Assembly: GCA_012838515.1 (NCBI GenBank)
Contig: DUPA01000264.1
Coordinates: 1 to 35,725 of the forward strand
Length of the DNA stretch: 35,725 nt
Source of the DNA: Natronincola sp.
Lineage (GTDB): Bacteria > Bacillota > Limnochordia > Darwinibacteriales > Darwinibacteriaceae
Direction of reading: 5' to 3'
The notes beneath the pieces are model-generated. The model worked only from the letters and a program-made list of their open reading frames with translations, did no database searches and was not told the DNA's origin. The first letter of the stretch is position 1. Every line of letters begins with the position of its first letter. Shown here one piece after another: positions 13,851-35,237 of this stretch. The position numbers and the translations under genes are program-made.

Positions 13851-13960
13851 GATGCTCATCAAGAGTGGTGGAGGGACTGGCCCTATGAAGCCCGGCAACC
13901 AATAAAGTTTGGTGCTAAGTCCTGCAAAATCCTGGAGAGGGTTTTGATAGATGAGGAGTA
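13851..13960 (+). ncRNA. SAM-I (S-box) riboswitch aptamer upstream of metK
   Basis: Core ATCAAGAGTGGTGGAGGGACTGGCCCTATGAAGCCCGGCAACC...GGTGCTAAGTCCTGC...GATAGATGAGGAG; closing P1 CTCATC/GATGAG. Confidence 0.97.
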
Positions 13961-14024: not shown

Positions 14025-15209
14025 ATGGCAGGTAAAAAGTATTCATTTACATCCGAATCTGTAACAGAAGGGCATCCTGATAAGGTTTGCGATCAGATTT
14101 CCGATGCCATTGTTGATGCGATTTTAGAGAAAGATAAAAATGCCCGTATTGCATGCGAGACGGCCATCTCCACCGGATTAGTCTTGGTTTTAGGTGAAAT
14201 AACCACAGATTGCTATGTGGATATTCCCAAGATCGTGCGTGATGTGGTACGCGGTATTGGATATGATCGGGCAAAATACGGTTTTGATGCTGATACATGT
14301 GCTGTGCTTACAGCCATAGAGGAGCAGTCCCCGGATATTGCCCTCGGTGTAAATAAGGCTTTAGAAAAACGTGCAGGCGATGCGGATCTTGACTCACAGA
14401 TGGGTGCGGGAGATCAGGGCATTATGTTCGGTTATGCAACGGACGAGACACCTGAATATATGCCCATGCCCATTGCGCTAGCACATAAGTTGGCTAAGAG
14501 GTTGGCACAAGTTCGTAAGGATGGCACTATCCCTTACCTTAGACCCGACGGAAAAACTCAAGTATCCATAGCTTATGATCAAGACGATCGACCGATGAGT
14601 ATAGAAAATATCGTGGTTTCGGCCCAGCATCACCCCGATGTTGACCAACAGACCATATTTGATGACATATATAAACATGTGATATCTGCCGTTGCTCCTG
14701 AGCAGTTTGTGAAGGAAGATACTAAAGTATTGGTTAATCCCACCGGTAGGTTTGTGGTTGGCGGTCCTTTAGGTGATGCGGGGTTGACGGGAAGAAAAAT
14801 TATTGTAGATAGTTACGGTGGATTAGGTCGTCACGGAGGTGGGGCTTTCTCAGGTAAAGATCCATCTAAGGTTGATCGGTCTGCTTCTTATGCTGCGAGG
14901 TATGTGGCCAAGAACATAGTAGCTGCCGGGCTCGCGAGAAAAGTCGAGATTCAGGTGGCATATGCAATTGGTGTGGCTAACCCCGTTTCCCTTTATGTGG
15001 ATACCTTCGGAACAGCGGTTATCCCTGAAGAAGATATAGTACAGTTAATTCGGGAAAACTTCGATTTACGACCTGCCGCCATTATACGCGGACTCGATCT
15101 ATTAAATCCCATATATCGCCAAGTGGCCGCTTACGGACACTTCGGTCGCTTAGATCTGGACTTGCCTTGGGAGCGCTTAGATAAAGTTTCTGCACTTATA
15201 AAAGGATAG
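14025..15209 (+). CDS. metK: S-adenosylmethionine synthetase
   Basis: [34 protein letters not shown]..., [34 protein letters not shown]. Start placed at the ATG with AAAAGGTGG RBS; the ORF track start (13830) lies in the riboswitch. Confidence 0.97.
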
Positions 15210-15227: not shown

Positions 15228-15263
15228 GAAAAAATACAGCCCCTCGTTAAGAGGGGCTGTTCG
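15228..15263 (-). terminator. Intrinsic terminator of the metNIQ operon
   Basis: On the minus strand ACAGCCCCTC-TTAAC-GAGGGGCTGT followed by ATTTTTT. Confidence 0.75.
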
Positions 15264-15273
15264 CTATTTGGTT

Positions 15274-16059
15274 TTAGAAAACCGGCACTACACCGCCGCC
15301 ATAGCTTTCTTCAATGAATGTTTTAACTTTTTCGCTACGCAATATTTCAGCTAACTTTAGTAAATCAGGATTGTCTACATCATCGCTTCGTACAGCTAAA
15401 ATGTTAACGTACGGCGATTCTCCACCTTCTTAAAAGATAGAATCTTTTATGGGATTAAAATCGGCTTGTAGTGCATAGTTTCCATTAATTACGGCCGCGT
15501 GAACATCCGGTAAAGTGCGGCTTAACTGCGCTGCTTCAAGTTCTACAAATTTAATATTCAGTTTATTTTCAATAATATCAAAAACAGACGGCTCGATTCC
15601 TGCTTTCGGATCTAGTTTGATTAAGCCCGCTTCTTGCAGAAGCAATAGTGCCCTAGTTCCATTGGAGGCATCATTGGGAATAGAGATTTGTGCTCTCTTA
15701 GGTAGATCGGCAAGGGAGGAAATCTTTTGACTGTAGACACCTAGAGGTTCTACGTGAATACCAGCTAATGATACTAAATCAGCACCCCTATCTTCGTTAA
15801 AGCCTTCCAAGTACGGAAGGTGTTGAAAAAAGTTTGCATCTAATTCATTATCCTGTAAAGCAAGATTTGGTGTAAGATAGTCAGTGAACTCAATAATTTG
15901 CAAAGTGATTCCTTCGGTTTTGAGGTCTTCCACAATAATTTCTAAGATCTCCGCGTGGGGAACCGGCGTTGCTCCGACTTTTATAACTTTAGCGGTTGCT
16001 ATACCTGCAGTTAATAAGGAAAAAACCAAGATAGAGATAACTAATAAATTTCTTTTCAT
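15274..16059 (-). pseudogene. metQ: Methionine ABC transporter substrate-binding protein MetQ, interrupted by an in-frame TAA
   Basis: NlpA/MetQ-like ORF ends ...NPIKDSIF*; the same frame continues for 51 conserved residues EGGESPYVNILAVRSDDVDNPDLLKLAEILRSEKVKTFIEESYGGGVVPVF to TAA at 15274-15276. Internal stop at 15430-15432. N-terminal hydrophobic signal present. Confidence 0.85.
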
Positions 16060-16071
16060 TTCATAAACCTC

Positions 16072-16707
16072 CTAATTTTTATGGTAAAGTTTGTGGGCAA
16101 TTTTATCACCCACCATTTGTATTCCTTGAACTAATATAATCAAGATAACAACTGTTTGTATCATAACATCTCCCCTGAAACGTTGGTAACCGAACCGTAT
16201 GGCCAAGTCACCTAAACCGCCTCCACCGATTGCGCCGGCCATGGCAGAATAACCAATGAGATTAACTGCAGTTAAGGTCACTGCTAAAACCAGGGCAGGG
16301 AGTGCTTCGGGAATCAAAACTTTATAAATAATTTCAGGGGGCGAGGCCCCCATACTTTCCGCCGCCTCAATAACACCGGGGTCCACTTCCTTGAGAGCCC
16401 CTTCAACTAACCTAGCCACAAAGGGTATGGCTGCAACTGTTAAGGGGACAATTGCTGCAGTTGTTCCAATGGAGGTGCCTACAATTTTGCGTGTAAAAGG
16501 AATTATGGCGACCATTAGGATAATAAAGGGGACTGAACGTCCGAGATTAACAATGGCACCGAGCGCTTTATTAAGCACAATTTGCTCTAAAATATGATTC
16601 TCTTCCGTCGTAGCTAATAGAATTCCCAGCGGTAAACCGATAATTGTGGCCAAAACTGTTGCTGAACTCACCATGAATAATGTTTCTAGTGTAGCATCCC
16701 AAAGCAT
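16072..16707 (-). CDS. metI: Methionine ABC transporter permease
   Basis: TLFMVSSATVLATIIGLPLGILL, NLGRSVPFIILMVAIIPFTR, GAIGGGGLGDLAIRFGYQRF (MetI signatures). Confidence 0.95.
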   Translation of the reverse strand: MLWDATLETLFMVSSATVLATIIGLPLGILLATTEENHILEQIVLNKALGAIVNLGRSVPFIILMVAIIPFTRKIVGTSIGTTAAIVPLTVAAIPFVARLVEGALKEVDPGVIEAAESMGASPPEIIYKVLIPEALPALVLAVTLTAVNLIGYSAMAGAIGGGGLGDLAIRFGYQRFRGDVMIQTVVILIILVQGIQMVGDKIAHKLYHKN

Positions 16708-17705
16708 TAGTTTAACACCTCCACTTTTACACCATTGTTTCTGAGATAAGTAATGGCATTTTCTTTTTTCTCGTGATTGCCCGATAGCTCAATCAGAAGC
16801 ATTCCGAAAGGTGTCTCCTTCATTTGATCAACTCTTCCAAAGAGGATGTTTACATCCAATTCATATGCTCGTACCATTTGAGAAATAATGGGGTCATGTG
16901 TTTTTTTGTCTACAAATGTCAAGCGAAGTAAGGTATTAGAAATCTCGCTAGGTTGCGCTTTATAATTTGTTGCTAAAAACCCTTGCAACATCCTCTGAGT
17001 TGCTACGCTTTGCGGATTAGTGAACACATCTATTACGGGGCCGACTTCTTGTAAAAATCCGTTTTCCAAAACAGCCACTTTGTCGCAGATCTCCTGAATA
17101 ACCGACATTTCGTGCGTAATGATAACGATTGTCAATTGAAGTTTTTCGTTGATTTCTTGCAAAAGCTTTAATACGGAGGTTGTAGTTTCAGGATCCAATG
17201 CCGATGTCGCTTCATCGCAAAGTAATAATTTAGGTTCAGTTGCTAGTGCTCGAGCAATTCCGACCCTTTGCTTTTGACCCCCGCTCAATTGTTCGGGATA
17301 AGCATTAAGTTTATCCGTTAGCCCTACAAGGCTTACTAGATTTTGAACTTTTTCTTTTATTTCATCCTTGGAGGCACCGGCTAATTCTAATGGAAATGCA
17401 ATATTACCAAAAACAGTGCGGGAATTTAATAGATTAAAATGTTGAAAGATCATGCCAATTTTTTTACGTTCGATGCGTAATTCTTTAGCATCGAGATTGT
17501 TCATTAGTACTCCATCTACAATAATATCCCCTCGATCCGGCTTTTCTAACATGTTAATGCATCGAACTAAAGTGGATTTTCCCGCGCCGCTTTGCCCGAT
17601 GATCCCAAAGATTTTTCCCTCAGGAATATTTAGATTTATGTTTTTGAGGGCGTGGACGGTATCTTTACCTGCAAAAGTTCTGTCCACATTTTTAAATATA
17701 ATCAC
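16707..17705 (-). CDS. metN: Methionine ABC transporter ATP-binding protein
   Basis: GQSGAGKSTLVRCINMLEKPD, LSGGQKQRVGIARAL, LLCDEATSALDPETT, C-terminal NIL-like domain. Confidence 0.96.
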   Translation of the reverse strand: MIIFKNVDRTFAGKDTVHALKNINLNIPEGKIFGIIGQSGAGKSTLVRCINMLEKPDRGDIIVDGVLMNNLDAKELRIERKKIGMIFQHFNLLNSRTVFGNIAFPLELAGASKDEIKEKVQNLVSLVGLTDKLNAYPEQLSGGQKQRVGIARALATEPKLLLCDEATSALDPETTTSVLKLLQEINEKLQLTIVIITHEMSVIQEICDKVAVLENGFLQEVGPVIDVFTNPQSVATQRMLQGFLATNYKAQPSEISNTLLRLTFVDKKTHDPIISQMVRAYELDVNILFGRVDQMKETPFGMLLIELSGNHEKKENAITYLRNNGVKVEVLN

Positions 17706-17718
17706 TTTGTGCCTCCTT

Positions 17719-17751
17719 AAAAAAAAGACCTCTTCGTAAAAGAAGAGGTTC
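17719..17751 (-). terminator. Expression-platform terminator of the metNIQ SAM-I riboswitch
   Basis: Minus strand GAACCTCTTCTTTTACGAAGAGGTCTTTTTT. Confidence 0.85.
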
Positions 17752-17775: not shown

Positions 17776-17887
17776 ACCCCTCATCTGTCTGGAAATCCAG
17801 CTGGAATTGGCACCTTGTAGGAATTAATTAAATCCACCGGTTGCCGGGCTTCACAGGGCCAGTCCCTCCACCTCTCTAGATAAGAGT
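17776..17887 (-). ncRNA. SAM-I (S-box) riboswitch aptamer upstream of metN
   Basis: Minus strand CTCTTATCTAGAGAGGTGGAGGGACTGGCCCTGTGAAGCCCGGCAACCGGTGGA...AAGGTGCCAATTCCAGC...AGATGAGGGG; P1 CTTATCT/AGATGAG. Confidence 0.97.
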
Positions 17888-17913: not shown

Positions 17914-17942
17914 AGTATAATAGGCAAGTATAACTTTGTCAA
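17914..17942 (-). promoter_or_regulatory. Sigma-A-type promoter for the metNIQ leader
   Basis: Minus strand TTGACA, 17-nt spacer, TATACT. Confidence 0.75.
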
Positions 17943-28234: not shown

Positions 28235-28630
28235 ATGAGTCTGAGGGTACAGTCGAATTCTGATGTGATAACTAAATTGGAACCTACAACACCTCGGCAA
28301 CTTACGGAAGTATCTCAAAAATCAGCTGCACTCGATCTAGAAAAAAAGCATAATGCTAAGCAGAGACTAGACGTAGATCACGACTTAAGTGAATACGAAG
28401 ATGCAACTTTAGAAAACGTAGAAACAGCCGTCAACGGTATTAATGGGGCTATGGAGTACGTTAATCGAGGTTTAAGGTTTTCGATTCACGAAGGTACTCA
28501 GCGGGTAATGGTCAGGGTTGTGGATGTTTTGACGGATGAAGTGATCAAGGAGTTGCCACCGGAGGCCGTCTTAGATACGGCTGCACGTATTCGCGAAATG
28601 ATCGGACTTTTAGTAGACGAGCGGGCGTAA
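28235..28630 (+). CDS. flaG: FlaG family protein
   Basis: NRGLRFSIHEGTQRVMVRVVDVLTDEVIKELPPEAVLDTAARIREMIGLLVDERA. Confidence 0.92.
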   Translation: MSLRVQSNSDVITKLEPTTPRQLTEVSQKSAALDLEKKHNAKQRLDVDHDLSEYEDATLENVETAVNGINGAMEYVNRGLRFSIHEGTQRVMVRVVDVLTDEVIKELPPEAVLDTAARIREMIGLLVDERA

Positions 28631-28648
28631 TAGTAAGGGGGTAATTCT

Positions 28649-29008
28649 GTGAGTGTTAATGCATATCAAGCTTATAAACAAACACAAGTTTCAACGGCTT
28701 CCCAAGGCGAGCTACTGATCATGCTATTTGATGGCGGTATTCGTTTTGCTAAGCATGCTAAAAAGCATTTAGAGGATGGCGATCTTGCACAGGCCAATGA
28801 TAAACTCATTCGGGCTCAAGATATTGTGAACGAGCTGATTCTTTCATTAAATCTTGATGTTGGGGAAATTGCCCAAAGTCTGCAGCAACTTTATACTTAC
28901 ATTTATGAACTTTTGGTACAGGCCAATGTGAAGAAGGAAACTAAGAAAATCGAAGAAGCTATTTACATGTTAACTGAATTGCGGGAGACATGGGAGCAGG
29001 TGGTGTAA
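28649..29008 (+). CDS. fliS: Flagellar export chaperone FliS
   Basis: NAYQAYKQTQVSTASQGELLIMLFDGGIRFAKHAKKHLE...LRETWEQV. Confidence 0.95.
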   Translation: MSVNAYQAYKQTQVSTASQGELLIMLFDGGIRFAKHAKKHLEDGDLAQANDKLIRAQDIVNELILSLNLDVGEIAQSLQQLYTYIYELLVQANVKKETKKIEEAIYMLTELRETWEQVV

Positions 29009-34156: not shown

Positions 34157-35237
34157 ATGCAAGAAATTTTAAAGGATCTCGGTCAACGGATAGACGAAAT
34201 GAGAGACTATCTTTGAAGTAGAAAACAAGCAGAGTAAACTATCTGAGTATGAAGAGAGAATGTTGGAACCCAATTTTTGGGATAACCAAGAATTAGCCCA
34301 GAATACAACAAAGAAAATTAGTGATCTAAAAAGAATTATTGGCCAATGGCAAGAGGTTCATACTCTATTTGAAGATGGCATGGTCTTTCTAGAATTATTT
34401 TTAGATTCGGGCGATCGATCTTTAGAAACTGAGCTAACGGGCATCTTACCGCAATTGCAAAAGGCTGTTGAGGAACTTGAACTTAAATCACTTTTAAGTG
34501 GGCAGTACGATGAGAATAATGCGATTTTAACAATTCACCCGGGTGCCGGGGGAACTGAGTCGCAAGATTGGGCTTCCATGTTATGGCGTATGTACACTCG
34601 CTGGGCTGAGAGCCAAGGATATACAGTTGAAGTTTTAGATTATCAGCCCGGTGAAGAAGCAGGCTTAAAGAGTATTACTCTATTAATTAGTGGTCTATAT
34701 AGCTATGGTTATCTTCGGGGAGAAAAAGGCGTACATCGCTTAGTACGTATTTCTCCATTCGATTCTTCCGGTAGAAGACACACTTCTTTTTCCTCTGTTG
34801 AAGTGTTACCTGAAATAGACGATGATTTAACTGTGGACATTAACGCAGACGATTTGAGGGTTGACACTTACCGCGCGAGTGGAGCAGGGGGACAGCATGT
34901 AAATAAAACGGATTCGGCAATTCGCATAACGCATTTACCTACGGGTATTGTTGTTCAGTGTCAATCAGAGCGCTCACAGCATGCTAATAGAGAAGCGGCC
35001 ATGAAAATATTGCGTGCCAGATTAATGGAGCGCCAAATAGAAGAGCAAAGGGAGAAACTCGAAAGCATTAAAGGGCAGCAACAAGATATTGCTTGGGGTA
35101 GTCAAATTCGTTCCTATGTTTTTTGTCCATATACAATGGTCAAAGATCACCGTACAAACGTGGAAACCGGAAATATTGATGCCGTAATGGATGGTGATAT
35201 CGAAATGTTTATTGAAGCTTTTTTAAAGCATCAATAA
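34157..35237 (+). CDS. prfB: Peptide chain release factor 2 with programmed +1 frameshift
   Basis: Frame 0: MQEILKDLGQRIDEMRDYL then TGA (CTT TGA at 34211-34216). Skipping T34214 gives EVENKQSKLSEYEERMLEPNFWDNQ..., continuous with the RF2 ORF; GGQHVNKTDSAIRITHLPTGI present. Confidence 0.95.

Follow-up and report, generated by a model that had tools for sequence, protein, structure and literature searches.

The methionine importer operon of Natronincola sp. is an ordinary S-box-controlled metNIQ operon, and the single in-frame TAA that splits its metQ gene is best explained, with some reserve, by one very recent nonsense substitution, which would have left a recent null allele.

The metNIQ operon and the stop codon in metQ

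The window, the whole stretch of DNA that was analysed, comprises 35,725 nt of the forward strand of contig DUPA01000264.1 (assembly GCA_012838515.1). The draft genome totals 2.16 Mb, is split into 271 contigs and is 93% complete. The operon is encoded on the minus strand in the order SAM riboswitch, metN, metI, metQ and intrinsic terminator. The features of the locus are as follows:

17914-17942, minus strand: promoter-like site TTGACA-17-TATACT, 5' of the riboswitch (consensus match only)
17778-17886, minus strand: SAM (S-box) riboswitch aptamer upstream of metN (RF00162, 87.2 bits)
17728-17749, minus strand: terminator-like hairpin with a T run (expression platform), between the riboswitch and metN
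16707-17705, minus strand: metN, ATPase with a NIL domain, intact (PF00005, PF09383)
16072-16707, minus strand: metI, permease, intact (PF00528)
15274-16059, minus strand: metQ, whole gene including the premature stop
15430-16059, minus strand: metQ head, 209 aa, with the signal peptide and the greater part of the methionine-binding protein (PF03180 positions 1-184)
15430-15432, minus strand: premature in-frame TAA at codon 210, which is Leu in same-family relatives
15274-15429, minus strand: metQ tail, 51 codons in the same frame and the normal TAA at 15274-15276 (PF03180 positions 189-236, E 3.6e-12)
15403-15405, minus strand: Asn codon equivalent to N229 of E. coli MetQ (read-through residue 219), lost by truncation
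15236-15260, minus strand: intrinsic terminator 3' of metQ, between the convergent metQ and metK

The first-pass annotation had described a metQ gene divided by one TAA at 15430-15432, a MetQ-like tail of 51 residues in the same frame without an indel, a terminator after the gene, and an otherwise intact operon and riboswitch; each of these features was recovered here, the last by the RF00162 match and the undamaged metN and metI genes. The MetQ N-terminus is MKRNLLVISILVFSLLTAGIATAKVIKVGATPVPHAE, and the head runs to ...ADFNPIKDSIF before the TAA at 15432-15430. Past the stop, the frame continues as EGGESPYVNILAVRSDD...YGGGVVPVF and closes at the TAA at 15276-15274. The PF03180 (NlpA/MetQ) profile matches the head alone at positions 1-184 (E 2.6e-72). 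Since the tail matches the same family on its own, it is not a chance open frame. In a whole-genome search read through the stop, the gene covered all 236 profile positions (1-236) with 303 bits, a single TAA and no indel. The reading frame does not shift across the stop, and the change is therefore a substitution; a frameshift was excluded as the cause of the break. This was the only PF03180 match in the draft genome, and no second metQ was found in its 2.16 Mb.

The metK gene (plus strand, about 14025-15209) is convergent with metQ and has its own SAM riboswitch at 13853-13957 (plus strand). The mechanical open reading frame from 13830 crosses this riboswitch; translation probably begins with MAGKKYSF at about 14025. 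Elsewhere in the window, prfB (release factor 2; 34157-35237, plus strand) carries the usual programmed +1 frameshift: its short opening frame, MQEILKDLGQRIDEMRDYL, closes with CTT TGA near 34211-34216, and the remainder lies in the +1 frame. In the flagellar cluster (28235-29008, plus strand), no fliD-sized frame occurs between the FlaG-like (28235-28630) and FliS-like (28649-29008) genes, which were named from a look at their sequences only.

Homologues of metQ and the age of the stop

Sixty relatives, all from outside the genus of this genome, were searched. A PF03180 match was found in 49 of them, none with an internal stop, and a stop at metQ codon 210 occurred in 0 of 95 aligned metQ stretches from relatives. 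The codon-210 column holds Leu in every same-family relative aligned and mostly Ile or Leu in the more distant ones. The comparison proposed at the first pass thus showed a stop unique to this genome at a position that is Leu in same-family homologues. The disabling change is absent from relatives, as in young pseudogenes; it is not conserved at the same site, as programmed readthrough would have it.

The divergence of the tail (after the stop) relative to that of the head (before it) was computed for this metQ and 29 intact homologues. The ratio was 1.23 (range 0.90-1.45; rank 16 of 30), and the tail retained every one of the 18 columns that at least 90% of homologues conserve. On both sides of the stop, the changes that separate metQ from its closest homologues are concentrated at third codon positions. 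Identity to these homologues reaches only about 69%, so the comparison speaks against long decay and gives no finer dating. The lack of excess tail divergence and the 18 retained columns point to a stop that would be either very young or absent from the organism. Among the four origins first offered (very recent nonsense mutation, single-base sequencing error, suppression or readthrough, and phase-variable loss of methionine uptake), the first two fit this undiverged tail, and the other two were not supported.

Explanations of the stop

According to the favoured explanation, one sense codon of metQ, Leu in relatives, would have become TAA by a very recent nonsense substitution, and the resulting allele may have reached fixation in the sampled population or may still be segregating in it. 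The metNIQ mRNA is still expected to be made, because the riboswitch, metN, metI and the terminator are intact. With translation ending at residue 209 of 261, the product would have neither the methionine-contacting Asn nor the C-terminal fifth of the fold; little or no MetQ-dependent uptake would remain, and the tail would not have had time to decay.

A single-base consensus error, or strain variants collapsed by the assembler, would instead leave metQ intact in the organism. This explanation is quite possible, if not the one preferred: the sequence comes from a single assembly, a draft of 271 contigs, and the same facts fit a one-base error. An error would also give just such full conservation, with a tail indistinguishable from those of functional homologues and metQ uninterrupted in every relative with a match. 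Against it, the stop lies well inside its 35.7 kb contig and is not beside a long homopolymer. Lone in-frame stops between coding stretches were scanned in 0.92 Mb of the 2.16 Mb (N excluded; control 0.28 Mb). Clean cases were few in the 0.92 Mb, metQ was among the clearest, and no further interrupted gene was flagged on its contig. The position deep in the contig and the absence of other flagged genes there lean toward a real, recent mutation rather than an assembly error.

Interrupted genes occur in this genome at a modest rate, and some of them look truly decayed, which also weighs against a consensus error. The only purB of the genome (L192, G000:C160, 3488-4497) has four stops and a frame change, and the frames flanking it look intact. 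No purB match was found in five sister genomes; the decay here together with these missing matches looks like genuine gene loss in the lineage. A BspA-type LRR region (L163:13238) and an EAL domain (L097:17616) each contain a stop that is spanned by one profile. L137:7469 is probably another interrupted gene, and L143:801 also has an in-frame stop in a coding frame. Interrupted orthologues were compared between samples of this genome (G000) and a relative (G001), with 36 and 33 shared genes, too few for an error rate, and several flags looked like spurious frames. A search of the literature on stop errors in metagenome assemblies yielded nothing useful.

Decoding of the TAA as sense, by readthrough or an ochre suppressor, would allow some full-length MetQ to be made from the single-copy interrupted gene, and the in-frame, fully conserved tail is what it would predict. 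Nevertheless, it is very unlikely. Since a stop at codon 210 is seen in no relative, programmed or conserved readthrough is improbable. Known programmed readthrough occurs mostly at UGA or UAG. Recoding of TAA was rejected, since it is the commonest stop here, closing 207 of the 378 long open frames. A scan of about 45% of the genome gave 21 tRNAs, and no ochre suppressor or other reader of UAA was among them. The suggestion of suppression or readthrough was thus not borne out.

It is harder still to credit that the 209-residue MetQ has a function of its own, perhaps as a partner of MetNI without tight methionine binding. In its favour, the N229A variant of E. coli MetQ, a very weak methionine binder, still binds MetNI and allows slow uptake (PMC12357092). 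However, 51 residues of a two-lobed fold are gone here, not one side chain, and no relative's MetQ ends at this point. The least credible explanation is a reversible switch of methionine uptake, whether by phase variation, as had also been proposed, or in another way: nothing except the intact rest of the operon speaks for it, the change is a substitution rather than repeat slippage, and the stop site has no tandem, direct or inverted repeats and therefore no substrate for phase variation, of which a lone in-frame base substitution is an unusual mode.

Effect on MetQ and comparison with known systems

The methionine site of E. coli MetQ, which we take to include Y69, F86, H88, Y91, R144 and N202 besides N229, was compared by alignment. 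The equivalents of the first six residues precede the stop and are conserved; N229 aligns with read-through residue 219, past the stop at codon 210. All seven residues are therefore present in the read-through frame, the last of them only beyond the stop. N229 belongs to the methionine site (PMC6739813), and its mutation lowers methionine affinity more than 10^5-fold, so that it is needed for tight binding (PMC6739813, PMC12357092). Solved MetQ structures cover the protein. The 209-residue product lacks both the N229-equivalent Asn and a fifth of the fold. Should the stop be real, a null or near-null metQ allele and loss of MetQ function are expected from the sequence. Re-initiation on the tail was rejected for want of a suitable start site, as the tail showed no start codon preceded by a Shine-Dalgarno-like sequence. 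An intact 793-codon open frame in the genome carries the S-methyltransferase domain found in MetH; the cell may therefore make its own methionine and may in this way tolerate the loss of MetQ.

With a real stop, the sole methionine-binding protein of the MetQ type would have been lost from this population very recently, and the cells would have to rely on making methionine themselves or on a different importer. Were it an error, automated annotation would wrongly call metQ a pseudogene. The importance beyond annotation is slight; a stop that stands alone in a draft genome should be checked against reads before it is interpreted.

The MetQ signal peptide (15987-16059, minus strand) contains no Cys, and nearly all close relatives are alike in this; E. 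coli MetQ, in contrast, has a lipobox Cys. The PF03180 family does not require this residue, and its absence suggests a soluble periplasmic protein in an outer-membrane cell.

Nothing about the in-frame stop indicates a new mechanism. The gene resembles the young pseudogenes that arise from nonsense-mutated bacterial genes in its one stop, otherwise open frame, intact operon and the intact copies of its relatives. It differs from confirmed cases in that the stop is known from one draft assembly, where an assembly error is possible. With known MetNIQ importers under S-box control, the operon shares gene order, riboswitch, domain content and binding-site residues, and it differs from them in the missing lipobox Cys, a trait of its near relatives too, and in the one stop codon that interrupts metQ.
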